Below are positions 7,611-33,839 of a stretch of 47,469 bases of DNA, piece after piece. The notes under the pieces were generated by a model. The model saw only the letters and a list, made by a program, of their open reading frames with translations, was not told the DNA's origin and searched no databases. Origin of the DNA: a virus; the IMG/VR virus record IMGVR_UViG_3300023174_000258, positions 1 to 47,469 of that record, one strand, 5' to 3'. A program made the translations under genes and the position numbers. Each line of letters begins with the position of its first letter. Position 1 is the stretch's first letter.

Positions 7611-8408
7611 TTGAAAATACCACCTTTTGAGGGAAAATTCCCTGACTCTGATGTTTGTTTTTATGTGGCTGCTGACGAAAATTATTTCAATCAGCATGCC
7701 AAGCCCTTGATTGGTAGTATTAGGCAATATTTTTCATATCCCATACATTTTCATTTATACAATCCTAGTGATGTATCAAAAAAATGGTGCGATGTTAACA
7801 ATATCAGTTACAGTTATGAAGTAGTTGACGTGAAAATTGTAGATCCTGCATTTGAGATTTATCGTAGTATGCCTATTGATTTAGAATTGCGTAGACGACG
7901 CAGTAAAATGATCAAGCCTGGTGAAAATGTTGAACGAATTCGTAATGAGTTGATGAAAACTTATTATGCCTGTACTAGATTTGTAAGATTGAGTGAATTA
8001 TTAATCAAACCCACTTATGTTATTATGTTAGACACTGATAGTTTGATCAGAAATCATTTTGAGTTACCAAGCAAAGAGTATGACATACATATTTACGAAA
8101 AAAATCATCGAAGTCACGTAAATTATATTCAACATCTTGCCAGTACTATATTTTATACTGGAACTGAAGGTAGCTTTCGTTTAATTCAAGATCATACTAG
8201 ATTAATCTTAGAAGAATACAGTAAAGACAGTTTATATTGGTTTTTAGACCAAGAAACGTTAGATGTTGCCATACAAAAATATGCTAAACAACCGTTATCG
8301 TTAAGTTATGTAGATTTCGACATGAAAGAAATCAGCAGTATATGGTGTGCTAAAGGGCCTAGGAAGAATTTGCCTGTTTGGTTAAAAGAAATTAAAAAAT
8401 ATGTTTAA
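7611..8408 (+). CDS. GT-A fold glycosyltransferase-like protein (265 aa)
   Basis: A 265-aa protein beginning with a TTG codon (MKIPPFEGKFPDSDVCFYVAADENYF). It has the pattern of GT-A transferases: an N-terminal strand CFYVAADENYF, HAKPLIGSIRQYF, then YVIMLDTDSLI with a DxD-type metal/nucleotide motif (DTD near residue 143). A C-terminal FLDQETLDVAIQKY segment resembles GT8-like enzymes. The only plus-strand gene of the island, it overlaps the next gene tail to tail by 4 bp. The start is uncertain: there is no ATG until the RSMPID segment near residue 85, which would remove the first strand. An AGGA lies at 7582-7585, so a rarer start codon nearer to it (7593-7599) is possible. Substrate unknown. 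Confidence 0.6.
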   Translation: MKIPPFEGKFPDSDVCFYVAADENYFNQHAKPLIGSIRQYFSYPIHFHLYNPSDVSKKWCDVNNISYSYEVVDVKIVDPAFEIYRSMPIDLELRRRRSKMIKPGENVERIRNELMKTYYACTRFVRLSELLIKPTYVIMLDTDSLIRNHFELPSKEYDIHIYEKNHRSHVNYIQHLASTIFYTGTEGSFRLIQDHTRLILEEYSKDSLYWFLDQETLDVAIQKYAKQPLSLSYVDFDMKEISSIWCAKGPRKNLPVWLKEIKKYV

Positions 8409-9310
8409 TCTCTTTCTATAAGATCAACTCTATTATGAGGCTGATATACCATTTTAAAAAATTTAGACTGTATACTATCCAAAGTGGCTACATTTAAATC
8501 TAAATTGTTAACTAACTCTTTTGCATAAAAATCTAATTTTTCTTTAAGGTCAACATCTTTAACTTGACTAAGCCACATGTCTGTTAAGTAATCAAAATCC
8601 CTCACATTATGATAATCCCAGTCAGTTAAGTTAGTCATGTAACAACCTTGCCTAGCACCCATCATGGCCCATAATCCATTATCAACATCACTGCCAATAT
8701 TACACCAAATCATTAATCTATGTAAGTTTTTCCAATGTACTCCTTCTTTTACAGTGACTTTGGTTAGCTTGGCTCCTCGATCAAGACTCATTTTTACGCC
8801 TTCCCTAAATCCTGCTCTCCATGCTTGAAAAGGTGTGGCATTGTTATGCACATCACTATAACAACCATTCATTTGAATATATTGGTTGTCCCAACAGAAA
8901 TCAACTTGCCCTATACTATCTTTAGGATCAGCATTTTCGTGTGTACGCATGTTCATGACAAAATCTACAGTCCAACACTTCAATCCGCCATTGCCATACA
9001 TTAGGCCATTGATAATATTATAACCACTCCAACTGATCACGCTGTTTTCTAAATTAGGATATTTGGCAATATCTATTTCTATGTTTAGAAAATCTGAACG
9101 AATTATATTGTCACCATCTACTGTGGTAAATCTTGGTGTTTCACTTAGTTGAGCACAAGCTTTGTGAGCACTATCACTACCTTTGACACCATGCACACGT
9201 TTAGCCCAAGGAACTTTGGTCAATAGGTCTGCATAATTCTTCTCTGCATTGGGTTCGTCATAACTGAGATATATGATATCATAATCGAGTGGTCTGAATA
9301 GTTTTGTCAT
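8405..9310 (-). CDS. GT-A-like nucleotide-sugar transferase family protein of T4-like marine phages (301 aa)
   Basis: A 301-aa protein. The N-terminus LDYDIIYLSYDEPNAEKNYADLL leads to KRVHGVKGSD, HKACAQLSET and RFTTVDGDNII, where DGD (near residue 66) is in the position of a GT-A DxD motif. The centre (VISWSGYNIINGLMYGNGGLKCW, then AFQAWRAGFREGVKMSLDRG-like text) and the LTDWDYHNVRDFDYL tail are blocks I associate with a conserved protein family of marine T4-like phages, often left as hypothetical. It is the last gene of a five-gene minus-strand operon and its start overlaps the previous stop (ATGA). Sugar-transferase function is inferred from the GT-A-like N-terminus and the neighbours. Confidence 0.55.
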   Translation of the reverse strand: MTKLFRPLDYDIIYLSYDEPNAEKNYADLLTKVPWAKRVHGVKGSDSAHKACAQLSETPRFTTVDGDNIIRSDFLNIEIDIAKYPNLENSVISWSGYNIINGLMYGNGGLKCWTVDFVMNMRTHENADPKDSIGQVDFCWDNQYIQMNGCYSDVHNNATPFQAWRAGFREGVKMSLDRGAKLTKVTVKEGVHWKNLHRLMIWCNIGSDVDNGLWAMMGARQGCYMTNLTDWDYHNVRDFDYLTDMWLSQVKDVDLKEKLDFYAKELVNNLDLNVATLDSIQSKFFKMVYQPHNRVDLIERD

Positions 9311-9972
9311 ATTTTTGTTCTAATATATTGATATTTTTCAAAGATTTTTCTTGCATACAAACTAACCCTGACTTCATCTTTATCTATTTGATCAAACGGT
9401 AATATGCAATAATAATTATTAATTAACTCGTTCATAGGAACTCGTAATGTCTTATAAAGTACGTTAGGGTCATTAAACTCTGTAACATAGATTTCATAAG
9501 TTTGATCAAAATATAATTTTTTATTACGTAATGATTGAGCTAAATTGCCGTTAATATATATTTTCCAACAAGTTTCTGCGTAATCTTGTATAATAGTAAT
9601 ATCATTCGTTGGATCATATTCTAACGGTATACTAGTGTCTATTAACGGGGAGAATTGAAATATTACATCATGAATGCTTTGTAATATTTCTTCCTGCTCA
9701 TCTAATCTTATAAATGTATAATCCTTAGCATCTGGACTAAAAATAACTTTATAGTTGTTTATAACATCCGAGCCTTCCAATAAACTTTTAACTTGACTAA
9801 ATGTTACAGTAACAGATGGCAATGTTTGCTCATTGGCCACATTAGATATACCTTTTATTTCGCCAGTATCAGGTTCATAAAAAACAAATCTAAAATCATC
9901 TGTTTGATTAATTTTATTACTGTAAGATTTTAAATCCTCTTCAGTAATGTCCCATTCTACTTGTAACAGCAT
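9307..9972 (-). CDS. Hypothetical protein in glycosyltransferase operon (221 aa)
   Basis: A 221-aa acidic, strand-rich protein. Near residue 30 it has FRFVFYEPDTGEIKGISN, a phrase that recurs in phage structural proteins. The middle has SVTVTFSQVKSLLEG and DYTFIRLDEQEE, and a C-terminal region (WKIYINGNLAQSL to VRVSLYARKIFEKY) looks like a small beta-sandwich. No catalytic motif is visible. It sits between two glycosyltransferase-like genes, abutting one and overlapping the other by 4 bp. It may be a virion or adhesin-like protein that is glycosylated, or a partner of the enzymes. This is a guess from position. Confidence 0.5.
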   Translation of the reverse strand: MLLQVEWDITEEDLKSYSNKINQTDDFRFVFYEPDTGEIKGISNVANEQTLPSVTVTFSQVKSLLEGSDVINNYKVIFSPDAKDYTFIRLDEQEEILQSIHDVIFQFSPLIDTSIPLEYDPTNDITIIQDYAETCWKIYINGNLAQSLRNKKLYFDQTYEIYVTEFNDPNVLYKTLRVPMNELINNYYCILPFDQIDKDEVRVSLYARKIFEKYQYIRTKI

Positions 9973-10815
9973 TTAAGTTATTCCTGTAATTTTTTCTAAT
10001 TGATTTATTATATGATCTGTTAAAAAACTATATTCTGTATAATGGAATAATCCCCGTTGTTGATAATTACCTATTTTAAGTTCACATTTTTTATCAAAAT
10101 ATGCACCAATACTATCCTGCCAAGATTCTGTAGGACTCTCCCAATTTTGAATCATTGGTTTCATATGCGTAAAAGTTATAGGTGAATTTTTATGACTAAC
10201 TTGGGTTTCGCAATCTAAAATTTTAGCAGCTAAACTAACAGTAACATCCATACTGGGCAACTTAGGGTAATTTATATTGACATACCGTCCATAAAACAAT
10301 TCCCAATTATTACTAATATCTTCGACCCAATTAAAGTATTCTTTGGCAAAATCGCTTTTTTTAAAATAAGCAGCACCAAAGTAAAAATTTGGTAAGTTAT
10401 TACTATCAAATGTTTTCCTGTAATATCTTCCAGTTACGATTTTTCCTCTGTAATCTAATACATCACTGGTTAAAAATAAATCATAATTTTTTAAATATTC
10501 CCACCAAATACTTAAGTCAGAAAACGCCAACATGTCTGCGTCTAATACAATGGTTTCGTCATATGGACTACAGTGATAGAGCTTCCATCTGTCTTCTGTC
10601 TTAAAAAACGTAGTTATTTTATTTCGATCACGCCACGGAACTGGAATAATTTGGTCGAATACTAAACGATATTTTTCAGGAATTTTATTGTCAGTAATCA
10701 AACTTATACTAGTGTCGGGCATATGATTTTTTATACTTAAGGCCAATGCATAAGCAGATCTTGTATATTTTTTTAACTTAGCATCTTCGGCAAAGATAAG
10801 AAATCCTTTAGACAT
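9973..10815 (-). CDS. GT-A fold glycosyltransferase-like protein (280 aa)
   Basis: It opens with MSKGFLIFAEDAKLKKYTRSAYALALSIKN, the strand-helix start of a GT-A fold, then SISLITDN. A DxD motif follows in YDETIVLDADMLAF (DAD at residues 92-94). NLPNFYFGAAYFKKSD, DVTVSLAAKIL and a C-terminal HMKP segment follow, as in GT8-like enzymes where a late His completes metal binding. The start MSKG-LI-A and the PYDET-VLDAD block are shared with the next gene (PFDETLVIDCDY), so the two are tandem paralogues. This one lacks the large insert. It overlaps the paralogue by 8 bp. Sugar and acceptor unknown. Confidence 0.65.
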   Translation of the reverse strand: MSKGFLIFAEDAKLKKYTRSAYALALSIKNHMPDTSISLITDNKIPEKYRLVFDQIIPVPWRDRNKITTFFKTEDRWKLYHCSPYDETIVLDADMLAFSDLSIWWEYLKNYDLFLTSDVLDYRGKIVTGRYYRKTFDSNNLPNFYFGAAYFKKSDFAKEYFNWVEDISNNWELFYGRYVNINYPKLPSMDVTVSLAAKILDCETQVSHKNSPITFTHMKPMIQNWESPTESWQDSIGAYFDKKCELKIGNYQQRGLFHYTEYSFLTDHIINQLEKITGIT

Positions 10816-12448
10816 TTAATTCCTCGTTTAATAGTCTGCTAATACTGAATTTATTCATCACATGTACATTGATACCCTTAGTTTTTATAACGGTATATTC
10901 TCCACGATATTTTTCTTTTTCAACTAAAAATTTCATCTCAGTATCAAAGTGTTCAAGTAGTATATCTTTGTCAATGGTATAGTACAATTTTCCTGGTAAA
11001 TCATGTGCCCATGTACCGCTTTGATAGCCATTCATAACATGTATAGCAATACTAAAAGCAAAATCATTCCTATATAATCCTTGCTCAATTTGATAGATAT
11101 ATCTATAATAATTCCAGTTTTCTTGTATATGACCTAAATAATTAAAAAAGATTTCTGTATTTTTATTTTTTCTAAAAAAGAACACAGTAGCCCAATAAAA
11201 ATCGATACTTTTATCACTTAAAGTAATTAATCTTGGATCGTGTCTATAACCACTAAGATCTACTGCTTGTTTATGTATTAAAAAATCATGAGGCTGTTGC
11301 CAGCAATATTTTAATATGTCATTATTAATTAAATAATCACAGTCGATTACTAATGTTTCATCAAATGGGCTCAATTCAAAACTTTTAACACGAATATCAT
11401 TTTTAAATCTTAGTTTTTTATGAGTCATGGCACCGTCAAAATATTGACGATATTGGGGGGTGGTATCATAAACTAAAAATCTTTCTTTGGTGTCTTCCCA
11501 TAAATCATATCTAATTTTATCTTTGTTATTTTGTGAGAAATCGTAATTAATTAATGACATCCATAAAACTCTTTCATGTAATATTATATCACCTTTGGTA
11601 AATTTGGTTAACTCTGTTAATTCTTTAATGTTTTTTAAAACAATATCATATTGATATGAACTGAATTCTTCTTTTTCTTCATATGAAGTATGACACCTAT
11701 ATAAAGTGTTCTCATGCCAAACGTGTTGTCCTACTAGATATGGTAGATCGGGATACCACTTGTCAATGTCAATACCTTCATAAACTCTAGTAAAATTTTC
11801 TTCAATTTTATAAGTTTTTTCAATGTCGATATTACTTTGAATATTACTCATCCATAAAGTACGATTAGATAGAACAATGTCTCCTTTGATTATTTCTTTG
11901 ATAAACTCACTATCTTGAACATTGTCGATTAATGAAATGTATTTGTCTTTACTAAAATTTTCTCCTTCATTATATTGTATTGCACACCTATATAATGTGT
12001 TTTCATACCAAACATGTTGACCTACCAAGTAAGGCAAATTAGGATACCATTTGTCGATGTCAATACCTTGATAAACTGGTTCGAAATCCTCTTGATTGAA
12101 AGTATAAGACTCTTCTACATGAAGTTCGACAACGTCAACAACGTCAACAACTTCAGGGCCCTCGTTAACTTTACACCATATGGTGCCGTTATAAAATGCT
12201 AAACTTCCCACAGGATATTGCCACGTTGGTGTCCAAGGAGCAACTTCTGCTTCTCGTACAACTTTTATAACCATATCAACATCATCTTTATAGTTAGGGT
12301 ATTGTTGGTACAACCAATCAGCACTGTCTGTGACTAAGGCCACAGGAATATCCAAATATTGCTTTACTCGTCTTGCAGCATTTAATGCCAATTTAGCATA
12401 GTCAATCTGCTCATTGTTTAGAGCATAGATTAAGACACCTTTGCTCAT
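10808..12448 (-). CDS. Glycosyltransferase with large inserted carbohydrate-binding-like repeat region (546 aa)
   Basis: The two halves of a GT-A transferase are separated by about 250 residues. Residues 1-65 (MSKGVLIYALNNEQIDYAKLALNAARR, VALVTDS) and 325-546 (YFDGAMTHKKLRFKN, LSPFDETLVIDCDYLINND with DCD at 369-371) match the smaller paralogue downstream. Between them lie five related short units with consensus G-x-x-[VAI]-x-x-x-x-x-[LIV]-[WY]: VGSLAFYNGTIWCK (80-93), VGQHVWYENTLYRC (142-155), KGDIVLSNRTLWMS (188-201), VGQHVWHENTLYRC (239-252) and KGDIILHERVLWMS (285-298). Units 2+3 and 4+5 form a 97-residue tandem duplication. The W/Y-rich pattern resembles carbohydrate-binding modules of the chitin-binding (CBM5/12) type. 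Binding the acceptor glycan is the likely role. The reading frame is intact throughout. Confidence 0.65.
   Translation of the reverse strand: MSKGVLIYALNNEQIDYAKLALNAARRVKQYLDIPVALVTDSADWLYQQYPNYKDDVDMVIKVVREAEVAPWTPTWQYPVGSLAFYNGTIWCKVNEGPEVVDVVDVVELHVEESYTFNQEDFEPVYQGIDIDKWYPNLPYLVGQHVWYENTLYRCAIQYNEGENFSKDKYISLIDNVQDSEFIKEIIKGDIVLSNRTLWMSNIQSNIDIEKTYKIEENFTRVYEGIDIDKWYPDLPYLVGQHVWHENTLYRCHTSYEEKEEFSSYQYDIVLKNIKELTELTKFTKGDIILHERVLWMSLINYDFSQNNKDKIRYDLWEDTKERFLVYDTTPQYRQYFDGAMTHKKLRFKNDIRVKSFELSPFDETLVIDCDYLINNDILKYCWQQPHDFLIHKQAVDLSGYRHDPRLITLSDKSIDFYWATVFFFRKNKNTEIFFNYLGHIQENWNYYRYIYQIEQGLYRNDFAFSIAIHVMNGYQSGTWAHDLPGKLYYTIDKDILLEHFDTEMKFLVEKEKYRGEYTVIKTKGINVHVMNKFSISRLLNEELNV
11549..12067 (-). 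repeat. Tandem 291-bp (97-aa) duplication inside the glycosyltransferase
   Basis: Two direct copies, 291 bp apart, encode GIDIDKWYP-[ND]-LPYLVGQHVW and then KGDI-[VI]-L units. The first 60 bp of each copy are nearly identical at the DNA level (compare 12000-12067 with 11709-11776), while the second part has diverged more. The second copy is cut shorter, ending near residue 300. This points to recent duplication or gene conversion of a binding module. Confidence 0.75.
12130..12151. repeat. 9-bp short tandem repeat within the glycosyltransferase insert
   Basis: About 2.4 copies of the 9-mer CAACGTCAA, encoding V-V-D-V-V-D-V-V on the minus strand. It lies in the linker between the first binding-like unit and the 97-aa repeats. 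In-frame expansion or contraction would change linker length without breaking the gene. Confidence 0.65.
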
Positions 12449-12792
12449 TGAGTCAATGCCTCTACACTTCTATTCTTTTTAAGTAATTGATAATCATTAT
12501 AATAACTGTTTGAAGCAATAAAATATTGATCAATCACATCATCTAAAAATTGTTGTAAATTACTTACTCTAACAGGCAAGTCATTGTCATCGATTACCAC
12601 AACGTCAGTGGTATTACCCATATCTATCAGAGTTTTAAGGAAAGTGATGAGGTCTTTAGTGATTGTAAACGTGCCACCGTTTTGGTAGTAAACACAATCA
12701 GTATGATATTTTTCTTTTAAAGCTCGTTTTTGATTGTTTAAAGTTACCATAAAATTGGCAAACTCTAGAGCCTTTTCCAGTCTTTCATCCAT
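12445..12792 (-). CDS. Conserved-type hypothetical protein (115 aa)
   Basis: A 115-aa mainly helical protein, MDERLEKALEFANFMVTLNNQKRALKEKY, then GGTFTITKDLITFLKTLIDMG, a strand pair VVVIDDNDLPVRV and a helical C-terminus. I recall close relatives in marine T4-like phages with no assigned role. It is first in the glycosyltransferase operon, overlapping the next gene by ATGA. GGGAG lies 6 bp before the ATG, a good ribosome site that fixes the start. Promoter elements in the 54-bp gap upstream are weak. Confidence 0.6.
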   Translation of the reverse strand: MDERLEKALEFANFMVTLNNQKRALKEKYHTDCVYYQNGGTFTITKDLITFLKTLIDMGNTTDVVVIDDNDLPVRVSNLQQFLDDVIDQYFIASNSYYNDYQLLKKNRSVEALTQ

Positions 12793-20981: not shown

Positions 20982-23900
20982 TTATCCGTTATCTAGTTTT
21001 CTTGGGGTAGTTTTCAAGAAATATGCTACTTCATTGGTTGATTCTGCTAGGTTTTTACCTAAGTCATTCCACGGTGTAAGAACTTTTCTAACAACCTGTA
21101 TTCTTATTCCCGGAGTATCTGGTATATGTTCTAATCTTACTTGAGAATTTATACCATCTACAGCAAAATCTGCAGGATAATCGATGTCACCCTCGGGACT
21201 CTCTGGATGCTCTATTGGATCGTGAAGTGTGTAAGCATCTTTTCTTTGTCTAACTCCACCCACAAACACTTCAATGCTATCTTTAGTTGGTATGAATGGT
21301 AATTCGATTAAATGTGTGCTATCTAACAGTGCATCAGGATATTCTTCAGGAGGCCATGTAATAACTTCCTCGCGATCTTTATAAGGAATACTTTCGTTGG
21401 GTCCAATATCTAATACTTTTTCTGATTTCTTATGCACATCGGTAATACCAGTTCCCCAAGTACCTCTTCTAAGTTGGCTTAAAACATTGCCATTTTTAAT
21501 AAAATATTCTATTCTTTCGCCATTTACGTATATGACTCCTGGCGCATTTGCTTCTATAACTGGTTCGTTTAATGCAGTGCCATCATCAACCGTTATTTGT
21601 TTATCATAATAGTGCAAATCTTCTGCTAAAATAGTAGTCCTATTTTTACTGATTCGTTTATAATGTGTTCTATTTAACATATCTTTGATTTGCATAAAGG
21701 CAATCGAATCTCTTACTATATTATTAGAAAAGGTTAGAATTGAAAATTTATCACTTTCTAAAGGGGAACTATTTACTATGATTTCTGTTTTATTATCTGA
21801 TAATATATAATCTATATTGGGTGTTAATAGAGTTTTATTTTTAATAACCCATGCGTAATTTGCATCAGCAATAGGCCTTTCAAGAGTAAAAATGCCAGCA
21901 CTAACTTTAACGGCATTTGCATAATAGATACTATCTTGATAACGATCTACATCAGGATAAATTTGATAATCTGTTCTTTGGATATCTAAAATATCATGAT
22001 TAAACATAGAGATAATTTCTATTTTAGTATTCTCTGGATAAGAATTTTTAAATTCAATATAGTTTACACGGTTTTCAACACCAATAGTATATTCGGCATT
22101 TTTAACTATAGTAACTAATAGTTTAGCATTTTCTATGTATTTGTTACTTTTAACTATTATTTTTGATTTTAATAAGTCCAAATCAAAACCATCGGATAGA
22201 TAAATTAATTGATTATCAACATAAACTTTAAAATCTGTTGATTCGTATTGATTAATATCATCTTTACCCAAAGGAATAATATACTCGTATACTTGATTTT
22301 TTAGTATAAAATAAAAAGAATCAACTGAATTTAATATCTCGTTTCCTACTTTAACAATAGCATTATATTCTAATGGTAAAAGATTACCAATAGGATTAGA
22401 AAGAGTATATCTGGACGCAGATTCTTTATATGTAATTGTTTCTTTTGAAACAATACTGGTGGTTTTGTTAGGAGTATCAAAAATTAAATAATTTATTAAT
22501 TGCCCGGGCATGACATCGAAGGCAAATCTTATACCTACCTTATTATCTATTTTGAATAAATTATAATTTTGAACAACCCCAGAGACCAACACTAACAAGC
22601 TTATATTATCTTTCCAAGGATAGTCCGTTATAATTTCGTTTGTTACAGTTTCTACTATGACATGATTAGTATCTGAAACATTTACTCCATTTAATCCTAT
22701 ACTAATAATAGAAACATATTTGTTAGCTTCTGGAATTTCGTTAAATTTTACTAATAAATTATCAAAATCTATAGTGTAGTCAACATCTATTTGAAGTATA
22801 ATTTGATCTAATTTTACTACAACAGCGGATTTACTATTAGGATATTGCCCTACTTTGAATTCAGAAATAACACCATCAGTTAGATAATTATCGCAAATTA
22901 CATTGCTGGAACCTGAACGATTGTCATCAAATACTTTTATTACTAGAGTGTCTACAACGTGTCCAGGAAGCATTTCTTCTGGGGCAGGGCTAGTTATTGG
23001 ACTAATAAACCTGTCTCCGTCTACAATAATATCTTCCGCTGTTAGACCTGTAGCAGTAGTATAGGCCATATTGCCGCCTTCTACTAGTGTATCGTAAATT
23101 TTATTTTCATTTCCTATAAGGTCCCACCCTTTATCACCCCAAGTATTATTTTCACTATCCCATGCCAAGGGCTGATTAAAGTTAATACCAACAATGCTAA
23201 CGCCTCCATAATCAATACCTGTCATTAACTGGGCAAAATCCTTACCAATCATTCCACTTTCTGGACTGTAATAATGTTTAATTCTGTCTAGAGCCGAAAG
23301 ATGGTGAAAATCTTTTTCGTATGTTATTGTTATAATAGTTCCCAGTCTGGGAGGATGTACAAAGGTTATTTGACCATAATAAACTGTATGACCTTTTTCT
23401 TTGGAGGAAGTTTTTACTATAGTATAATTTTCACTGATTTCGTCAATAGTAATGCCGTCAATAGTGTATTCTACTAAAAGTTTTTTAGATTCAGTATTAG
23501 GACTATATTTTAAATTAAAAGTGATAGTGGCATTATCACCAGTAAAAGTATCAATTTGTTCTAAAGGCAATATTTCTGATAATAATTTTTTATTATAACG
23601 ATCAAATTTCATAGCTATAAGATTGCTTCTAACAAGATCGTTTTTTACAATAGCAACTGCCTGTGCCTGAGTTCCCCCTACACTTAAATGGCCTTCTATG
23701 ACTATTTCAGGAGCTTTTAAATATCCTGCACCTGTATCTAAAATTTCGATATCTATTACTTGGCCGTTAGATATAAACGCTCTAGCCTTGGCTGGTCTAG
23801 TACAATTTCCTATAATTTTTACCAGTGGCCTTGATGTATAACCATGTCCTTCATTTGAAATAGTAATAGTCTTTATGCCAAATCCAATATTATCTCTCCA

Positions 23901-26900
23901 AAGTTTCCATGGATATTCATTTATAATATCGTCATAATAATATAATTCGTCATTTTTAATTTGGGTAGTAATAACTTCTATATTAGAATTGGTAATATAG
24001 GAAGGCAAGTCAAAATCAGTCACCATACTTTGTGTGTTATCCATGCTATTATACACACTGACAAATTCCCTTATTTTTGTACGATAAGGCTTAACTTCGG
24101 ATATATAACTTTCAAAATCTTCTAAATTATCATTGCTGTATGTTACTTTTTGTTTAAGTTTACCTACATTATGTAAGGCTTTGATAAAACTAGTTTTAAA
24201 TATCCAATCCAAATAAGGTTGCTCATATAACGCATATCTGATACTGAGGAAAAACAAATTCAAATAAAGTATTCTTCGATCATCTATTAGAATTCGATCT
24301 TTCAAACTGTTTAAAATTATACGTAATTCTGTGGTTCCGGCATTGTCAAATTTATTAGAATCATAGAGACCACTATCGTAACCCAACTTATTTTTAACAA
24401 AATTATAAAAATTAGTTGATAACTGAATAGATCCATTTTGTCTTCCTACAACTTTATAACTTTGAGTATAATCAATAGAATCTGCGTTGGCATATTTTAC
24501 CAATAGCATCCATCCCGAGCTACCTACATTATTAACTTTTACTGTTTGGCCTATTTCACTATCTTGTGTAAAAAGCTGATAAGTCCCATCTACTACATGA
24601 TCGATTTTGCTATATTGATTATATGTGTATTCCCTTCCTGTATCAGAGTCTATATAAGACCCATACCAGTCGATGTAATTCCAAAACGCAGTTACATCAT
24701 ATTCTTGAATTTTTATTTTACTCCATATTTCACCAACAGGATCATAAGCATAAATGGCCCAATTTCCAAAAATTGTACTGTCACTTCTAACTAACGCACA
24801 TAAAGGCCTTACAGATAAAGTAGTTGTTTCTTTGTCATAACCTTTACCACTATTTTTAATTTCAATCGGTAGTAATGCTCCAACAGAATTTACAGTAACG
24901 TCAATTGATGCGTTAATGCCCTTACCTATGATAGAAATTGTAGGACCTTTATACACATTTTGTTTAATTTGTTGTAGTGTTCCGTATCCATATCCATTAG
25001 AATCAATGTTGATTGAAACAATACTGCCGTTTACTATTACCAAAGATAATTCAGGCTTTTTAAATAATCTTGTGTTGATAAATTGTAATTCACTTTCAGT
25101 ATCAACGACATAATCGTATACCCCGGATAGAGTCGTCGGAGCAAGATCTTTTTTCAATAAATCAGTTAAATCTAAATTATCTATTTGAATTGTTTTAAAT
25201 TCGCTATTAATTCGTTCGATAACTTGCTTAACTGCTTCTAGTCTATTGACAAACATGCTTTGTCTAGGTTTAGATTCTATACCATATCTTTGTTTAGGAG
25301 GTAGTTTAAGATCTGGTGCCATTTTGCCATTTTCGTCAAAACCTACTAAACTATCAATCCATTTCTTTTCAATATGTTTAGGTATTTCAGTTTTTTCATT
25401 TTCACTAATAATTTTCCATTGACTATGGATATTAATTTCATGCTGTGGAATATTCCAATATTGAATAGCAAGTACTACATCACGATCCGATAGTAAATCT
25501 TTGACATTAGTTAAACTAAAACTATTTCTATCAGTAAATTCGATATATTTTAATGCAGCACCTTTGGGATTGCTAATAATGTTAGAAATATCAGCAGCTG
25601 AATTAGTTCTTCCAATAACGGTAGGAATTGTAGTTTTATTTTTTACCCAGAAATAATAAGTCGAATTAAACGACTTAGCCACTGTGTCATAGGTTCTTTT
25701 AATACTATAAACATCATCACCATATAGACTTTTTCCGCTAATACCTTGGGTAATTCCTTGATCCGTATCAGCTAATTTGTCCCAGGCGGAAGGCAAATAT
25801 CTAGACGAAACCCACTCGTAGACATCAATGCTGGCTGTTTCGTACAACGTATTCCATGTGGTATTTTTATAAACAATGTCACTAAGATGTGCATCTAAAA
25901 ATTTAGCCCTACTTAAATCCCACCATAAAGTACCAACTTCTACGTCCAACCAAGACATTCCATCGTCTACTATAACTGATATATCTGATGCAGCAGAACG
26001 GAATGAATACGTGGCCGGATCGTAATAAGTTTTATATTTGATCTGTTGTTCAGCAATTCCTGATATTTTACCCTGTGTAGGATCTATTATATCTAAGTAA
26101 GTGACTAATTGATTTGTTCGTTTATTATACAAGAAGATTTTTTTGAATACACTTAAATCTATTTTTGCTGTTTCTTCTTGACTAATTTTCCAACTATAAT
26201 TATTAGGGGTTCGTTTATGAGTGTAAATTGCACCGCTATTTTTATTATCATTCAACCCAGATGGTGCAGAAATTATTACAGTATTGTCTGAAACATCTAC
26301 ACAACTACCGTATTCCTCTGCTTGACTACTAACCACAGCCAAACTTTCGGAAAATATAAATTTATTGTCATAGATATCATAGATATCTGCTCTGCCTGAA
26401 TCACGTTTAATAATGTAGGTACTATCATCATGATGTGTAATACTATCATGATAATTCATAGTGCTATCATCATAATTGAACAAATCATTTTTTGACCCGT
26501 CACTAAGTCGGCTAAAAATTAATAATGTTTTTTCATTATTAACAAATTTTAAATATGTACCAAATTTTTCATTGCTATCACGATCATTATTTCTTTCAAC
26601 TAATGTCTGAAATAGATTATAATTTTTATAAACGTTTACTATTTGTTTACTATTTGTTTGACTTGATACGGCCAAATAAGTTCCATTATTGGATAAAGAT
26701 ATTGTCTGTCCAAAATTTAGTTGATTTGCTTTAGTTATTTCATGTTCTTTTGTAAATGTTTCATTATTCCTATGAAAAACTAAAACTTTTCCTTGACCAT
26801 TATGAGTTAATGATGTAGACAATGCCAATGTACTAGCTGTCTGATCAATATCGAATTCATAGGCAAATGGTTGATTTTCACAATCTACATCAGTTGGACG

Positions 26901-29900
26901 TATACTGGTTACAAACTGCCAAGTAGAACTATCGCTAAAGTTCTTGAAATAGTATATTATACCACTGATACTATTACCATCTGTGCTGCTAATAGTTAAG
27001 GAATACAACCCATCATAGGCAAATTTAATTTTGAATCCAAAATAAGGATCGGGATCAGAGTTTGTTAAAGTTGTAACAAACTCGTATTGTAAACTATCAT
27101 TTAATTGATATAATTCAATAACACCATTATTTGATGTAGTTACACAACCAATAGCTAACCACTTTTTATCATCACTGACTGCTAAAGTTTTAGCAAATGT
27201 TCTTATATCACCTGGCATAAGAATTGTTTGACGATCACTCCATCCTGAATCATTAGACCATGGTGTGTAGATATTCACTCTTTGTGATTGGTTCTGACCT
27301 AAGGCTACTACCATAATATCGCCAGCTGCATTAGTAACTAATTTTCTACCAAATTTATATTCATTCCCTAACAACGGGTCATATAATTTTGTCCTTGTAT
27401 AAACAGGATTATTTTGCCAAACTGCATATTTGTTGCCAAGTGAACGATTAATCCAGACAAGTTCACCTTTTTTAAGGTAATGGGGAACTACAATATCGTC
27501 TATGGTGTTAAATCTTTGAGGTAAAATTTTAAAAATTTTAGTAGTACTTAAAGTTTCAGAGTCAGGAGTTTTCCAATTGATCAGTCTGATATTGACCGTA
27601 ACAATTCTGCCATCTATTTCACTAATTTCAAAGAAGGAGTTAACTTTGTCGTAGTCAGATTTAATTCCAATTATTTGACCTACGGTAAAATCTATATCAT
27701 TAGCAAAGGATATAAACAGAGTATTATCGGTATATGACATTCCATCTACAACATAATCTGTTTTGGTAAATCTATATACATTCCAATCGTCATTAAATTC
27801 GTTTATTTTATTTTCAAATGCACACCAAATATAGTCGCCTGATGAAAAATTCTCTATGTCTTCGGCTAATAAACTGCTCTTTGAATCAACGGCTAGTTTA
27901 ATTTGATCATATTTGACAAAACCAGGTGTACGCAAAAATGGTTTATAATTACTGTTAACAGGCCATAAATTATTTTGATAAAATTTGGGTGTTAGATATA
28001 TGTCTTTTTTAGTTTGTCTAATAACAAAATCTACCAAAGTATTATCAACGGTACTGACTAATTCTATTGCCTGAGGATTAATTTTAAATTGGCTTTCGTC
28101 TAATATAAATTCTACTTCGTCAAAAGCATCACTGGCGCCATATTGCCCTGCTCTAATTGCCCATTCTTCGATAAAATCAATACTATCCCTATCATCTGCA
28201 CTGAGAACGTCAAATAATTTATTAAGAGAATTCACTGTGCCTTTTTCTTGGATCATTCCTTGATAAAACTTGAATTCACTAACATCGTTTTTAATAATGT
28301 TACTCAAGTATTGACGCTTTTGATAGCCTATTAAATGCTGAGCTATTTTTTGTTGACCTACATCAAAATTATCGCTGTCTAAATCATAAAAGTCTGTGAA
28401 TTGTAAGGCTTTATAGTCCCAATTAGGCAGTAGTTGACTGGTCGGTTTGCTGTCTAATCTTATCCATTTATTTTTATTGAATTCCTCTTGGCCTGGTAAG
28501 AATTCCATGGCTGAATAATAAAATTCTTTATATTTGACAATATCCCCTAGATGATAATCCATCCAAGGTTGCCAGTCATTGATATAGGCTCGATCATAGA
28601 TAAACCCAGGTGCGTCAAGACTTCCATTCCAGTTTAATGTTTTATATCCAGATACTTTAATTCTTTCTTGTCTATAACCTGTTTCTGGACTATAAATCAC
28701 ATCATTGAATTGTGTATCATTGTCAATGATTAATACATGTTCTTTTTGTATTAGGTATAAACTTGCGCCATATATACCAGTATTTTCATTTGTCGGTTTT
28801 AGTGAAAAAAGATTGTCATATCTAGAATAACTTAATAATTTAGGATCGTATTTTTGACCATTAGCTGAAAATATTTCATATGTGCCAATCTGCTCTCTTA
28901 AATCAGCAACAGTAGCATAATTTAAATTTAAATCTATGCCCAATGCTGCTGGACTCAAGCTTATTGCTGACGCCCCGTCTTGATTTAAGCCATCTAATTT
29001 TACATATAAATTAACATCAAAAAAAGTTGTTGTTGTATGATCTCTTTTTGATTTATAATAATCGCCATTGTAAAGAACAACCGACCCTGCTTTATAAAAA
29101 ATACCAAAATCCCATTCGGAATAATTTTCAGTGCCTGGACTCCAATTTTGCGTAGTCCAGAATAAAAATTCTTTCACGCTGGTTTCCCAACTAGCTACAG
29201 ATTTTAATGTTATATTATACTGGTCAAATGCCAATCCTTGATCTTTTAAATATTCTCCGTAACCTTGAAGGAAATCTACAACTTCTTGAATCGAACCTAA
29301 AGTAGTTCCATAATTTAAAAGAACAGGAATTCTTTCCCATTTTTTTCTAATTAGAGCTGTTGCTCCTCCAATTATAGGCAATGATGGTAATTTTTGTAAA
29401 AGATCTAAGGAAGGATTTTCCTCACTAACATGTGAAGTTTTTACTCTATAGAAAACATTATTAATCTCTATAATGTTTCCTACTACATATTGTTGATTGT
29501 TAGTCCATTTAATAAAGCTTTCGCTAATTCCGCCTACGTTAATACCATGTCCAGATTGTGTCCATACATAATAATAAAAATATGGGTTGCTTTGACTATA
29601 TCCTTTTATTTCATAACCTATGCCAGTTTTAGTCAATACTTTAGTTACAATAACACCACTATATAATATTTTTTTAATAGGACTACTAGTGTTTAAAAAT
29701 ATTTTATAATTTTCACTTGGCACAAAAACGCCCGATTTAGCTGCACTACTTTTGCTGTCTAAAATTAAATTATATTTTTCTTTGCTAGTAAATGCTGATA
29801 ATCTATGTGCAAGTTTATTGTTAATGGTTATTAAATCATTTTTATATGTGTCTAATGCCGTGGAGTTATCTCCTTGTAAATAATCTACAACATAATTGAC

Positions 29901-32900
29901 TAACCCCGCTGTTAATGTTCTAACATTATCCGATACAGTATTAGGTGTTAATAAATCTTTTAATCTCAATCGAACACCAGTTTCTGAATAGATTAATTGA
30001 TCATTTCTATTTTTAACTATCCTTGATCGATCTAAGTAACAACCTAATACTCGACCTGGCTGCATAAGAATCATTGTAATTAGTAAACTAAACGGATAAT
30101 AGCTACTTCGTCTCCAAGCTGTTTCTACAGGGCTTTGATCGCCAAAAACGTATGTAAATGATCTATTACTATTAAAAATTCCATGTGCTAAATTAGCTGT
30201 TAAGGGGTCTAATAATCGACCATCTTCTTTAACAGGAATATTTTTAAGTACAGGTCTTGCAAATTTAGGGTTTCTTGTTAAAGGTTTGCCAGGTTCTTTG
30301 ATTACACCATCTCGCAGATCCTGCCAAAGTATAAGATTATTAGATGTATAAGGTGCAGGCCCATAAGTACTTTCCCACCATTTTGGCTGAATACTAAATC
30401 CTAAACTCTCCCAAGGTGTTAAGTGTATGCGGTCTGTGTCAAAGTACCATTTGTAAATTCCACGCCAAAACCCCGGAACATTGTTTCCGTCTATGCCTAC
30501 TGCTTCCCTGTAGTTGTAAGTAAAAGGATTATTTGAATCATATTTCAAAGATTTGGTAAAATCTTTATCAATTAGTCCTGTCCATTGATAAAAATTAGGT
30601 GCAAGAATTTGATTGAATTCATCTATAGTATACTCAGTAGGTCTATTAGAATTGGGTATAAAATCATATATGTCTATAATATTTGGATCATATTTGACTT
30701 TAATATTGTTAAAAAATCGTTTTTCTAATTCTAAGATTATTTGATCTCTATAATCATTAAAAGCTAATACAATGCTGCCGTCATGCCCTTGAATTACATT
30801 TTGTGGCTCAAGTAAAGTAGTATCTAGATAAATTTTTGGCTCAAATTTTGGATATAATCCTAAACTTGTCGGGGTAGAAGGAATATAACATCCATCTGTA
30901 CTTTCATATTCATAAACTGTTATGACATCATCTTCTTTTATAGAGCACAATATTTCTACAAACCCATCCAAGCCAAATATATAATCTTTTTCATGTAATA
31001 ATTGAACATTATTCACATACACATTAACAGATTTATTACTTAAACTTTGTAAAGTAAACACTGTGGCTAAAGGATATTTTTTAACTCTATAATCTTGTAC
31101 AGTAAAATCTGTTTGTTTGGCTGCACCATAAGCTAACATATCACTAAAATAGTATGAAGCTTTTTTAGGTTTGCCTTGATTAATTTCAAATAAAATTAAA
31201 TCAACTGCTTGTTTAACTGTTATTTCACTATTTAAAACACCGGTATGATTTATAAAATTTCTTTTAAAGACTCCAAAGTCATCTCTGGCTTTTTCTAATG
31301 CTGTTATTATATTAGCATCTTTATTGGTCAAATGATATAATGCTAAATTTAAACTGCCACTATGTTGAATAAATTTAGTTCCATGACTACTAAGATTGCC
31401 TATATCCCTTAAATTATTTACTCCTGGATATTCCCCTTGGAAATTATCTAAATTATCTATAATAGAATCTACATGATCAATAACTTCACCTAGAGTAAAA
31501 TCATTAATATTATTGTTTAAAGGATTATTTTGTAAATTGATAGGAAATTCGTAATAACCATTATTGTTTTTATTTTGTCTAGCATAACATCTCAGTGTAA
31601 CTATATCAGTTGTGTTAGCATCTGTAATTAATACTACTTTTTTATAATTTGCAGCATCTTCAACTGAAAATAAACTTTTATCAATTCTTTTGCCATTTAT
31701 ATAAACTTTTACCAAAAGATCATTAAGATCAGTAATATCATTGTATACATCTATAGGAAAATTATTAACTAAAACAACTTTTGTTTTTATTCCGTTTACA
31801 AATTCTTCTACCGTTTCGTTTTTATAAATCCTCACAATAGGTTGAATATTTTTTAATGTATTTTTAGTCCACCCATTAATGTATTTTGAACCTAAATTAG
31901 AAAAGTTTTTAAGAAACTTATTATCTGTGTTTTCGGTAATTATGGACGCTTGTTGCTTGTAAGAAAAACTTTCTTGTAGTAAGTTATAGTTAAAAACAAT
32001 ATCCCCTACATTATTAATATTTTTATAACTTAATGCAAATCCTAATTCACTATCTACAACACCAGATCCAGTTTTATAAGAAAATAATTTATTTCCTAGA
32101 AAAGTAGTGCCTTCATATTTGGTCGAATCAGAAAGACTAACTTGATCTTTATCGAATAAATCAAATAATGGAGGTTGATTTTGATCTGTTTTTGATTGTC
32201 CTACTAGCCAGTTAGAACCATTAAACCATAAATGTTTACTTTTATATTGGACACCGTTTTTAATTAATACAATTTCTTCTAGTAAAGGATCACTATCTGG
32301 TTCTTGTACTAGATGTATTCTACGTTGTCCTGGATCATTGGCATCTGCATGAATAAGAATAAATTCTACTTTAAAAATTTTATTACTTACCAAGGGATCT
32401 TTATCACCTGTAAATAATATACGATGTCCGTCTAGTAATGAAACTCCATCGATATTATAGCTTAACGCTCCTTCTATTACAGAAAATACATCATTGGTAA
32501 AATCGTCAACTAAATCTACATCTTTTTTAGGACGTATTCCAAAATTATATAGTTTGATATTGGCATTAAACTCTATAATCGGTCTCTTGGCTCTTTGACT
32601 TTGGTCAAATACTGCGGGTACTTCGAAATGATCTGCTGTTTGTTGTATGACATCCTGATGGAACCAGCGATTATACCGGGTCCAAGGATTGCAATCTAAA
32701 CTAGCTCTATTAATTGTAATATAATCTTTGTCTGCTGCCGAGTATATAACATCATTATAAGGCAAGTCGTCGAAGCCAGTGTCATCGAAAGTTACGTCAT
32801 AATTTGTAGTATACGGAGCTACAATTTCTAATTGTTTTTCCGGAATAAGTTGAATTCTTTCACCTACTCCTTCTACATAAAAATCTCCTTCACTATAAGA

Positions 32901-33839
32901 ACTAGGAGTAACACGGCCTTTAAAATTAACTTTCATTCCATTGCTTAAAGATATTCCGCTGGGCAATGTGTACGTTTTTGCGTTTATGATTTCATTTTCG
33001 ACATCTATGGCTGTATTTTCTTTAATGTCAAATATTTTAATAATACCGGATGTATCTGCTGATATTTCGCTAGTATAATAAAGTACGTCAGGACTTTGTA
33101 AAGGTACTGTAAAAGTTATTGTGCCATTTTCTACAGCAAAATTATCTACATCTGTATATCTAAAAAAGCTGCCTGGTTCAAGTTCTGTTTTAATACTGAA
33201 AGGTTCACCCGGAGTATCAATTTCAAATTTATAAGTTTGTCCACGATATAAAGTTAATGACGGATTTCTAGTCAATCCGTTTGGTGTGAAAAGATATGCT
33301 CTATTGTCACCTTCGTCGGACAATGTTACTTTGAAAGTACGAGTTATTTCTTGTTGTTGTCCATAAATTGTTATGGTTTTAGGCCCGAATGGTAACCAAT
33401 AGTAATGTAAAAAGTTAACAATCTTATCCCAATCAATATGAGGTTCCCAACTGTAAAATTCCTGTTGATTTAGTACTTGATGATTGCTAGCTAATCCTCC
33501 TAATACATTTACACTATGTACATAATCTAAATAATCTTTAAAAAATGTCACATTGCCCAATGTATCTTCAATTACCAAGCTAGGTTCTAACTGATAATTT
33601 TGTCTTTCGTCTAACAGTTCTTCTAAAAAAACATCGTTACTTGTAACTGATTTTGCGTTTTGACGTCCAATGAATCCGTTAAGTCTTTTTACAGTTCCAG
33701 TCTGAACTAGCTGATCTATTGTGCCGCCGATGAATTTTTTATTACTATCAGTTCTGTAAATTCTAGGTAATAATGATTCGGTTTTTCTTTTTTGATTAGG
33801 ATCAATAGGAGGAGCATTTTCTGTTTGATTTTCAGACAT
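20982..33839 (-). CDS. Giant baseplate wedge-like structural protein (4285 aa)
   Basis: One uninterrupted 12.9-kb frame, about 27% of the window, in the place where T4 has genes 7, 8 and 10. The N-terminus (LLPRIYRTDSNKKFIGGTIDQLV, SWEPHIDWDKIVNFLHYYWLPFG) is of the type found in large structural proteins of marine T4-like phages. Visible parts: a block near residues 1225-1270 (FGDQSPVETAWRRSSYYPF, MQPGRVLGCYLDRSRI); three carbohydrate-binding-like segments near 1440-1485, 1575-1617 and 1753-1796 (for example YKAGSVVLYNGDYYKS); a beta-propeller-like region near 2160-2550 (repeated strands such as TLAVSDDKKWLAIG and TISLSNNGTYLAVSS); [GN]-x-GY repeats near 2940-3015 and 3320-3380 (NEGHGYTSRPLVKI, DTGAGYLKAPEIVI); and a C-terminal PGVIYVNGERIEYF / LSQLRRGTWGTG block near 4090-4125. 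The start overlaps the gp6 stop (TAATG). Probably a wedge-peripheral scaffold combining the gp7/gp8/gp10 roles. Confidence 0.75.
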   Translation of the reverse strand: MSENQTENAPPIDPNQKRKTESLLPRIYRTDSNKKFIGGTIDQLVQTGTVKRLNGFIGRQNAKSVTSNDVFLEELLDERQNYQLEPSLVIEDTLGNVTFFKDYLDYVHSVNVLGGLASNHQVLNQQEFYSWEPHIDWDKIVNFLHYYWLPFGPKTITIYGQQQEITRTFKVTLSDEGDNRAYLFTPNGLTRNPSLTLYRGQTYKFEIDTPGEPFSIKTELEPGSFFRYTDVDNFAVENGTITFTVPLQSPDVLYYTSEISADTSGIIKIFDIKENTAIDVENEIINAKTYTLPSGISLSNGMKVNFKGRVTPSSYSEGDFYVEGVGERIQLIPEKQLEIVAPYTTNYDVTFDDTGFDDLPYNDVIYSAADKDYITINRASLDCNPWTRYNRWFHQDVIQQTADHFEVPAVFDQSQRAKRPIIEFNANIKLYNFGIRPKKDVDLVDDFTNDVFSVIEGALSYNIDGVSLLDGHRILFTGDKDPLVSNKIFKVEFILIHADANDPGQRRIHLVQEPDSDPLLEEIVLIKNGVQYKSKHLWFNGSNWLVGQSKTDQNQPPLFDLFDKDQVSLSDSTKYEGTTFLGNKLFSYKTGSGVVDSELGFALSYKNINNVGDIVFNYNLLQESFSYKQQASIITENTDNKFLKNFSNLGSKYINGWTKNTLKNIQPIVRIYKNETVEEFVNGIKTKVVLVNNFPIDVYNDITDLNDLLVKVYINGKRIDKSLFSVEDAANYKKVVLITDANTTDIVTLRCYARQNKNNNGYYEFPINLQNNPLNNNINDFTLGEVIDHVDSIIDNLDNFQGEYPGVNNLRDIGNLSSHGTKFIQHSGSLNLALYHLTNKDANIITALEKARDDFGVFKRNFINHTGVLNSEITVKQAVDLILFEINQGKPKKASYYFSDMLAYGAAKQTDFTVQDYRVKKYPLATVFTLQSLSNKSVNVYVNNVQLLHEKDYIFGLDGFVEILCSIKEDDVITVYEYESTDGCYIPSTPTSLGLYPKFEPKIYLDTTLLEPQNVIQGHDGSIVLAFNDYRDQIILELEKRFFNNIKVKYDPNIIDIYDFIPNSNRPTEYTIDEFNQILAPNFYQWTGLIDKDFTKSLKYDSNNPFTYNYREAVGIDGNNVPGFWRGIYKWYFDTDRIHLTPWESLGFSIQPKWWESTYGPAPYTSNNLILWQDLRDGVIKEPGKPLTRNPKFARPVLKNIPVKEDGRLLDPLTANLAHGIFNSNRSFTYVFGDQSPVETAWRRSSYYPFSLLITMILMQPGRVLGCYLDRSRIVKNRNDQLIYSETGVRLRLKDLLTPNTVSDNVRTLTAGLVNYVVDYLQGDNSTALDTYKNDLITINNKLAHRLSAFTSKEKYNLILDSKSSAAKSGVFVPSENYKIFLNTSSPIKKILYSGVIVTKVLTKTGIGYEIKGYSQSNPYFYYYVWTQSGHGINVGGISESFIKWTNNQQYVVGNIIEINNVFYRVKTSHVSEENPSLDLLQKLPSLPIIGGATALIRKKWERIPVLLNYGTTLGSIQEVVDFLQGYGEYLKDQGLAFDQYNITLKSVASWETSVKEFLFWTTQNWSPGTENYSEWDFGIFYKAGSVVLYNGDYYKSKRDHTTTTFFDVNLYVKLDGLNQDGASAISLSPAALGIDLNLNYATVADLREQIGTYEIFSANGQKYDPKLLSYSRYDNLFSLKPTNENTGIYGASLYLIQKEHVLIIDNDTQFNDVIYSPETGYRQERIKVSGYKTLNWNGSLDAPGFIYDRAYINDWQPWMDYHLGDIVKYKEFYYSAMEFLPGQEEFNKNKWIRLDSKPTSQLLPNWDYKALQFTDFYDLDSDNFDVGQQKIAQHLIGYQKRQYLSNIIKNDVSEFKFYQGMIQEKGTVNSLNKLFDVLSADDRDSIDFIEEWAIRAGQYGASDAFDEVEFILDESQFKINPQAIELVSTVDNTLVDFVIRQTKKDIYLTPKFYQNNLWPVNSNYKPFLRTPGFVKYDQIKLAVDSKSSLLAEDIENFSSGDYIWCAFENKINEFNDDWNVYRFTKTDYVVDGMSYTDNTLFISFANDIDFTVGQIIGIKSDYDKVNSFFEISEIDGRIVTVNIRLINWKTPDSETLSTTKIFKILPQRFNTIDDIVVPHYLKKGELVWINRSLGNKYAVWQNNPVYTRTKLYDPLLGNEYKFGRKLVTNAAGDIMVVALGQNQSQRVNIYTPWSNDSGWSDRQTILMPGDIRTFAKTLAVSDDKKWLAIGCVTTSNNGVIELYQLNDSLQYEFVTTLTNSDPDPYFGFKIKFAYDGLYSLTISSTDGNSISGIIYYFKNFSDSSTWQFVTSIRPTDVDCENQPFAYEFDIDQTASTLALSTSLTHNGQGKVLVFHRNNETFTKEHEITKANQLNFGQTISLSNNGTYLAVSSQTNSKQIVNVYKNYNLFQTLVERNNDRDSNEKFGTYLKFVNNEKTLLIFSRLSDGSKNDLFNYDDSTMNYHDSITHHDDSTYIIKRDSGRADIYDIYDNKFIFSESLAVVSSQAEEYGSCVDVSDNTVIISAPSGLNDNKNSGAIYTHKRTPNNYSWKISQEETAKIDLSVFKKIFLYNKRTNQLVTYLDIIDPTQGKISGIAEQQIKYKTYYDPATYSFRSAASDISVIVDDGMSWLDVEVGTLWWDLSRAKFLDAHLSDIVYKNTTWNTLYETASIDVYEWVSSRYLPSAWDKLADTDQGITQGISGKSLYGDDVYSIKRTYDTVAKSFNSTYYFWVKNKTTIPTVIGRTNSAADISNIISNPKGAALKYIEFTDRNSFSLTNVKDLLSDRDVVLAIQYWNIPQHEINIHSQWKIISENEKTEIPKHIEKKWIDSLVGFDENGKMAPDLKLPPKQRYGIESKPRQSMFVNRLEAVKQVIERINSEFKTIQIDNLDLTDLLKKDLAPTTLSGVYDYVVDTESELQFINTRLFKKPELSLVIVNGSIVSINIDSNGYGYGTLQQIKQNVYKGPTISIIGKGINASIDVTVNSVGALLPIEIKNSGKGYDKETTTLSVRPLCALVRSDSTIFGNWAIYAYDPVGEIWSKIKIQEYDVTAFWNYIDWYGSYIDSDTGREYTYNQYSKIDHVVDGTYQLFTQDSEIGQTVKVNNVGSSGWMLLVKYANADSIDYTQSYKVVGRQNGSIQLSTNFYNFVKNKLGYDSGLYDSNKFDNAGTTELRIILNSLKDRILIDDRRILYLNLFFLSIRYALYEQPYLDWIFKTSFIKALHNVGKLKQKVTYSNDNLEDFESYISEVKPYRTKIREFVSVYNSMDNTQSMVTDFDLPSYITNSNIEVITTQIKNDELYYYDDIINEYPWKLWRDNIGFGIKTITISNEGHGYTSRPLVKIIGNCTRPAKARAFISNGQVIDIEILDTGAGYLKAPEIVIEGHLSVGGTQAQAVAIVKNDLVRSNLIAMKFDRYNKKLLSEILPLEQIDTFTGDNATITFNLKYSPNTESKKLLVEYTIDGITIDEISENYTIVKTSSKEKGHTVYYGQITFVHPPRLGTIITITYEKDFHHLSALDRIKHYYSPESGMIGKDFAQLMTGIDYGGVSIVGINFNQPLAWDSENNTWGDKGWDLIGNENKIYDTLVEGGNMAYTTATGLTAEDIIVDGDRFISPITSPAPEEMLPGHVVDTLVIKVFDDNRSGSSNVICDNYLTDGVISEFKVGQYPNSKSAVVVKLDQIILQIDVDYTIDFDNLLVKFNEIPEANKYVSIISIGLNGVNVSDTNHVIVETVTNEIITDYPWKDNISLLVLVSGVVQNYNLFKIDNKVGIRFAFDVMPGQLINYLIFDTPNKTTSIVSKETITYKESASRYTLSNPIGNLLPLEYNAIVKVGNEILNSVDSFYFILKNQVYEYIIPLGKDDINQYESTDFKVYVDNQLIYLSDGFDLDLLKSKIIVKSNKYIENAKLLVTIVKNAEYTIGVENRVNYIEFKNSYPENTKIEIISMFNHDILDIQRTDYQIYPDVDRYQDSIYYANAVKVSAGIFTLERPIADANYAWVIKNKTLLTPNIDYILSDNKTEIIVNSSPLESDKFSILTFSNNIVRDSIAFMQIKDMLNRTHYKRISKNRTTILAEDLHYYDKQITVDDGTALNEPVIEANAPGVIYVNGERIEYFIKNGNVLSQLRRGTWGTGITDVHKKSEKVLDIGPNESIPYKDREEVITWPPEEYPDALLDSTHLIELPFIPTKDSIEVFVGGVRQRKDAYTLHDPIEHPESPEGDIDYPADFAVDGINSQVRLEHIPDTPGIRIQVVRKVLTPWNDLGKNLAESTNEVAYFLKTTPRKLDNG
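26421..26483 (-). repeat. Three tandem 21-bp repeats inside the giant gene
   Basis: Copies start at 26421, 26442 and 26463, each near ACTATCATCATGATG, exactly 21 bp apart. They encode three heptads of the form [YH]-[DH]-D-S-[TI]-x-x in a loop of the propeller-like region near residue 2460. The acidic, His-rich loop could bind metal or be a length-variable spacer. Confidence 0.7.

Follow-up and report, generated by a model that had tools for sequence, protein, structure and literature searches.

A predicted phage GT-A glycosyltransferase with an in-frame array of CBM5/12-like modules in its hypervariable loop, and the same module pair in neighbouring genes of related phages

The window, which is the whole 47,469 nt stretch analysed here (IMG/VR record IMGVR_UViG_3300023174_000258), contains a predicted glycosyltransferase, GT1, whose catalytic fold is interrupted by an in-frame array of five modules resembling the CBM5/12 class. 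The insertion falls in what is known in GT-A enzymes as hypervariable region HV1, an extended loop running from strand beta-3 to helix alpha-C and contributing to acceptor specificity (PMC7185993). In related phages, pairs of the same modules are found in other genes of the same operon. Sequence comparison thus suggests a portable targeting part, either built into the target-choosing loop of GT1 or carried by its cluster neighbours in relatives.

Architecture of GT1 and its insert

GT1 has a two-part GT-A fold, broken after residue 63 by approximately 254 in-frame residues. The gene order of its operon is conserved: small ORF, GT1, GT2, gene 3, gene 4. The features of the operon in the window are:

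12445..12792, (-) strand: conserved 115 aa ORF (MDERLEKAL), preceding GT1 in the operons inspected
10808..12448, (-) strand: GT1, 546 aa, predicted GT8-like transferase of GT-A fold, interrupted by the module array
12260..12448, (-) strand: GT1 N-terminal part, residues 1–63, with strand 1, helix 1 and strands 2 and 3; boundary from the insert-free L120, L017 and L103 and from the AF2 model
11498..12259, (-) strand: GT1 in-frame insert, residues ~64–317, five CBM5/12-like modules
12149..12241, (-) strand: GT1 module 1, single, residues ~70–100 (W72...GSLAFYNGTIW)
12129..12155, (-) strand: 9 bp in-frame tandem repeat, 3 copies, giving the linker VVDVVDVV
11786..12076, (-) strand: GT1 pair 1, 97 aa, residues 125–221, modules 2 and 3
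11498..11785, (-) strand: GT1 pair 2, residues 222–317, modules 4 and 5
10811..11497, (-) strand: GT1 C-terminal part, residues 318–546, with the DxD motif and the C-terminal His
11336..11344, (-) strand: GT1 DxD motif, D369-C370-D371, both Asp invariant
10862..10864, (-) strand: conserved C-terminal His of GT1, H529 of HVMNK
9973..10815, (-) strand: GT2, intact paralogue of GT1, 280 aa; pairs lie between strand 1 and helix 1 in L142, L230, L246 and others
9307..9972, (-) strand: gene 3, 221 aa, of no family; homologues carry 1–2 pairs in L183, L204, L158 and others
8405..9310, (-) strand: gene 4 of the conserved operon (LSYDEPNAEKNYADL), in which pairs are never seen

Units of the form G-x-x-V...N-x-[LI]-[WY] are located at residues 81, 143, 189, 240 and 286. 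The last four make up two pairs, one beginning at residue 125 and the other at 222, hence 97 aa apart, which agrees with the split transferase and 97 aa duplication described in the first-pass annotation. The insert had been placed at about residues 70–325. That it is an in-frame insert holds, but its ends are at about 64 and 317 when judged by insert-free homologues (L120, L121, L017 and L103), which as GT1 orthologues give a sharper boundary than the paralogue GT2. The nearest of these are L120, at 62% identity, and L121, at 59%. By comparison with these two, the insert lies between 'VDMVIKV' (residue 63) and about residue 318, where 'EDTKERFLVYD...' aligns with 'KDNQQYRSVVLD' of L120. Default MAFFT misplaces the short loop of insert-free chains against insert-bearing chains, and a split-fragment alignment was used instead. 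The insert-free homologues and the structural model both locate the site in the loop that follows strand 3 and leads to the helix preceding the DxD motif.

Scanning IMG/VR with the C-terminal half of GT1 identified at least 538 relatives. In the 80 of these examined, those outside the close clade of the window are 282–298 aa in length and have no insert, and the same is true of L017 and L103. Since most homologues are without it, the ends of the insert could be mapped and it should be seen as an addition, its units being neither an integral part of the GT fold nor common to all homologues. The same architecture is present in more than 10 further IMG/VR contigs from different samples, therefore it is not an assembly artefact. 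No signs of an intein or intron were found in the insert; the frame is open throughout and Pfam gives CBM_5_12 and no splicing domain.

The number of pairs within GT1 follows a 0-1-2-3-4 series across the relatives. There is one pair in L113, two in the window and in L001, L003, L008 and L016, three in L005, L009, L011 and L013, and four in L007. In a tree of the units, the first, middle and last pairs cluster by position among close relatives, indicating that copies of the pair arise through tandem duplication or loss. Within one enzyme family, relatives thus represent every stage of a natural series in which a single loop holds anywhere from none to nine binding-type modules in tandem, and this could reveal what these uncultured phages glycosylate. 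The acidic-hydrophobic linker ahead of pair 1 also differs in length among close relatives, its 9 bp repeat being present in 3 copies in the window and in 6.4 perfect copies in L013 (L013:6294-6351).

Comparison of the window with L001 and L003 gives dN/dS values of 0.12–0.14 for the insert and 0.02–0.04 for the GT core (0.03–0.04 for its C-terminal part). The insert is therefore translated and under purifying selection, although it evolves faster than the core. In L004 an in-frame stop codon is found inside module 1 (L004:6229-6231), which is either genuine or a sequencing error.

Fold classes of the transferase and the modules

A direct profile search of PDB sequences found no match to GT1, Pfam matched it to no useful family, and neither Pfam nor PHROGs could usefully name the products of GT1, gene 3 or gene 4. 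Kinship with known GT8 enzymes is reached only by way of GT2. The GT2 profile matches glycogenin from strand 1 through the DxD motif (E 7e-6), and the GT1 and GT2 profiles match each other with a probability of 99.7 (E 1e-26), as expected from the earlier reading of GT1 as a GT-A enzyme whose halves align to the paralogue next door. In the AlphaFold model of the full chain the GT core is mostly at pLDDT 75–91. By fold this model best matches LgtC, UGGT and glycogenin; phage tail chains are matched too, and no match has E<1e-3. A Rossmann strand (364–369 in the model) ends in the DxD motif, and D369-x-D371 is invariant in all homologues; N461, D462 and H529 are likewise invariant, including in the insert-bearing members. 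GT1 is therefore predicted to be a GT8-like GT-A enzyme on support that is indirect but consistent, with its activity being a prediction. Strand order, DxD and C-terminal His are shared with GT8 enzymes, whereas the missing direct sequence match and the replacement of the HV1 loop by ~254 residues of binding-type modules set GT1 apart from them. Whole-chain prediction was informative for the core but not for the insert, where pLDDT is only 25–66, and the model thus gives no prediction of the array being placed above the active site.

Pfam CBM_5_12 is matched by 10 of 11 GT1 homologues (best E 2.4e-9), the sole exception being a homologue without the insert. In the window the match is at residues 134–156, with E 4e-4 and 20.8 bits, under the 26.2 cut-off. 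A profile of the unit detects pairs in 24 records, mostly at E 1e-20 to 1e-39. A single pair, modelled with 60 diverse relatives aligned, has a mean pLDDT of 87. Its best matches in the PDB are Agrobacterium phage 7-7-1 tail fibres and phage Milano receptor-binding chains (9rkv, 8fqc), a chitin oligosaccharide deacetylase from Vibrio, and the domains by which chitinases C, B and A1 bind chitin. The probabilities for the ChiC, ChiB and ChiA1 domains are 0.77–1.0, yet E is 0.07–0.8, and all of the PDB fold matches have E above 1e-3. Against predicted viral proteins E falls to 1e-5, with several of these named as chitin-binding. From the matches to chitin-binding domains and viral proteins, each pair is best read as two CBM5/12-like modules, modelled as a small beta-hairpin fold, and the earlier description of the units as carbohydrate-binding-like is borne out by both Pfam and the pair model. 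Evidence from hhalign that the two half-units of a pair are homologous is no more than suggestive (E 5e-4, probability 32%).

Across 61 pairs from all host genes D132, W134, Y135, G143, Q144, H145 and F165 are invariant and W147 is nearly so, although this is partly a product of ascertainment, the scans having been seeded with D.WY and GQH patterns. The pairs of L142 and L183, found via GT1 rather than the seed patterns, show the same residues. CBM5/12 domains bind chitin or cellulose through an exposed Trp, which in ChiA1 is the chitin-binding W687. No Trp is conserved at this place in the 61 pairs, whose invariant residues are at other positions, the alignment to 1ed7 stopping just before it, and other aromatic residues such as W147 could serve. 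With no evident counterpart to the ChiA1 Trp, the fold does not imply carbohydrate binding. The pair thus shares its fold and the core motif W...Y..G..V.yn..Y with CBM5/12 domains of ChiA1, ChiC, ChiB and the Vibrio deacetylase, and differs in having two modules per unit and the GQHVW signature. The Milano and 7-7-1 chains are virion proteins, whereas the GT1 modules are inserted in an enzyme.

The pair in neighbouring genes, at a second locus and in virion proteins

GQHVW-type pairs are present in frame in GT2 of other phages (13 distinct ORFs, with two pairs each, right after strand 1) and in gene 3 homologues of other phages (55 distinct ORFs). When whole records were scanned with the pair profile, strong matches were confined to GT1, GT2, gene 3 and a second locus, with weak matches in the 4–5 kaa giant virion protein of several phages. 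A tally was made of 132 operon entries, three of which are copies of the window. No pairs are found in 76 of these, while 13 have them in GT1 only, 31 in gene 3 only and 12 in both GT2 and gene 3. Pairs in gene 4 were never found among the 132, and GT1 pairs were in no case accompanied by pairs in GT2 or gene 3 (0 of 132), an exclusion that rests on few independent clades. In the GT1 tree the phages with modules in GT1 form one clade, adjoining insert-free phages, and those with modules in gene 3 form another, with insert-free phages between the two. Modules in GT2 require at least two gains or losses, inside the gene 3 clade. An architecture that had been considered unusual is indeed absent from most homologues, but it is less isolated than was thought, because related phages have this module in two genes neighbouring GT1. 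The proposed search for the insert in other phage proteins was productive, with the pair found in GT2, gene 3 and the second locus.

At the second locus of L209, L218 and L254 a protein with one C-terminal pair is followed by a gene with one N-terminal pair. The product of the downstream gene is one more transferase-like protein and has either an LDADM or an LDCDM motif. In L218 (L218:3884-5068) this represents a further transferase-like family, with its N-terminal pair and LD(A/C)DM motif, that has no Pfam or PHROG match. L212 and L241 have a single ORF in place of the two genes, and the switch falls within the pair, close to GQHVW. The fused form is 98.7% identical to the two-gene L252 up to the switch, over 4.3 kb. 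It follows that copies of the module can recombine, fusing or splitting proteins. The fused ORF is at L212:3386-5068 (also in L241), for comparison with L252:3386-4279 and L218.

The module had also been suggested to be traded with virion proteins. Distant kinship is seen in the giant tail ORF 20982-33839(-), of 4285 aa, which matches Pfam CBM_5_12 over the cut-off (E 4.6e-7, 30.2 bits) with modules at about residues 1444–1792:

28508..29510, (-) strand: three CBM5/12-like modules of the giant tail ORF, residues 1444–1475, ~1575–1611 and 1748–1777 and on

The virion ORFs of the window do not contain a significant GQHVW match (E 0.06), and recent exchange of units with them is not supported. 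By sequence, the GT module is a distinct GQHVW family, different from the CBM5/12 modules of the giant tail ORF. This ORF also has an FG-GAP-like repeat, and its homologues in related phages are 4.3–5.3 kaa.

Possible role of the array

There is about an even chance that the array is a targeting arm in the acceptor loop. Favouring this reading are where the insert sits, the retention of catalytic residues, the fold, and the fact that the module recurs in enzymes of one operon. GT1 is a predicted GT8-like GT-A enzyme of a tail-proximal operon, with its HV1 loop replaced, in one clade of uncultured large phages, by an in-frame CBM5/12-like array that grows and shrinks through tandem duplication. 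The array would bind the substrate of the operon, either a phage surface component or a glycan on it, and would in this way bring the active site to the substrate, perhaps a virion tail protein. GT2 and gene 3 captured the same module separately in other phages, so that what matters would seem to be that some member of a co-encoded set, whose products may act jointly, carries it. Because other phages have it in adjacent enzymes, simple deletion of the module would be enough to test what it does.

GT-A enzymes are thought to change acceptors through expansion of hypervariable loops. Both GT-A enzymes with binding domains and HV1 loops of differing length are already known. HV1 expansions, such as that of MGAT2 (GT16), are at the same place as the GT1 insert, from strand 3 to helix C, and are said to set acceptor specificity (PMC7185993); those loops vary between families, whereas GT1 has tandem domains of a known binding fold, with 0–4 pairs in one family. 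GalNAc-transferases (GT27) and MGAT4A are likewise transferases with a carbohydrate-binding-type domain, by which they are steered (PMC4432651, PMC9296478). There it is a separate lectin domain, on a flexible linker in the GalNAc-transferases (PMC5716993), whereas the GT1 modules are of another CBM class and lie inside the catalytic fold. Neither a graded CBM5/12 array within HV1 of a GT nor the acquisition of one kind of pair by adjacent genes was found described in the literature searched, and nothing was found there on tail-fibre glycosylation.

More tentatively, and with clearly less than an even chance, the pair may belong to a portable CBM5/12-derived adapter family (two-module pair, D-x-WY...GQHVW) known only from uncultured phages. 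Such a family would be captured in frame, time and again, by several enzymes belonging to a single phage glycosylation operon, would spread and fuse genes through recombination between copies, and would redirect GTs to a phage-specific acceptor as a natural plug-in retargeting system.

The main rival to the targeting arm, possible although it would be the less probable of the two, is that the pairs are assembly modules without sugar recognition, binding another protein or each other and so holding together GT1, GT2, gene 3 and a virion part. This would account for the same module being in different genes of one operon, and for the second locus, where the pair ends one protein and begins the next and where L212 and L241 have these joined in one chain. 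It is also consistent with the apparent absence of the canonical chitin-binding Trp and with CBM5/12-like folds being common in phage structural proteins. However, no other operon member has the pair where GT1 does, making pair-to-pair contact between different products impossible in those phages.

It is improbable that the array is a passenger, in the sense of a repeat prone to recombination that got into loops able to tolerate it and stays there without a role. Differing pair numbers among close relatives, the 9 bp repeat linker, unit-to-unit recombination and an insert dN/dS above that of the core could all be explained in this way, but the insert dN/dS is far under 1, residues are invariant across pairs only 25–35% identical and in different host proteins, and vertical inheritance within each host gene has been long. 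It is equally improbable that the GT-like proteins are virion parts retaining a GT fold with the array as a receptor for host glycans: the operon genes are directly after tail-fibre-like ORFs and the pair resembles the Milano and 7-7-1 receptor-binding chains, but the catalytic DxD, ND and His motifs are kept at dN/dS 0.03, most homologues have no binding module, and a trimeric fibre or baseplate-binding domain was not detected.

The phages carrying the module are probably large myoviruses, with the window being an uncultured relative of the Atu_ph07/PA5oct group, as the baseplate wedge ORF 33839-37264(-) shares 33–37% identity with its counterparts in the jumbo phages Atu_ph07, PA5oct, MIJ3 and Phosso. 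In INPHARED there was no match to GT1, to an insert-free GT1 homologue or to gene 4, one weak match to GT2, and chance-level matches only to the unit (E 3 or more), leaving no phage record there with the module. A bacterial origin of the module was rejected following a scan of 84,980 genomes, in which only two identical stretches were found, both carrying the same phage operon. These two (L346 and L347), identical over the compared stretch, come from two contigs of a single Marinimicrobia MAG, RS350, possibly a phage binned with the MAG or a hint as to the host.
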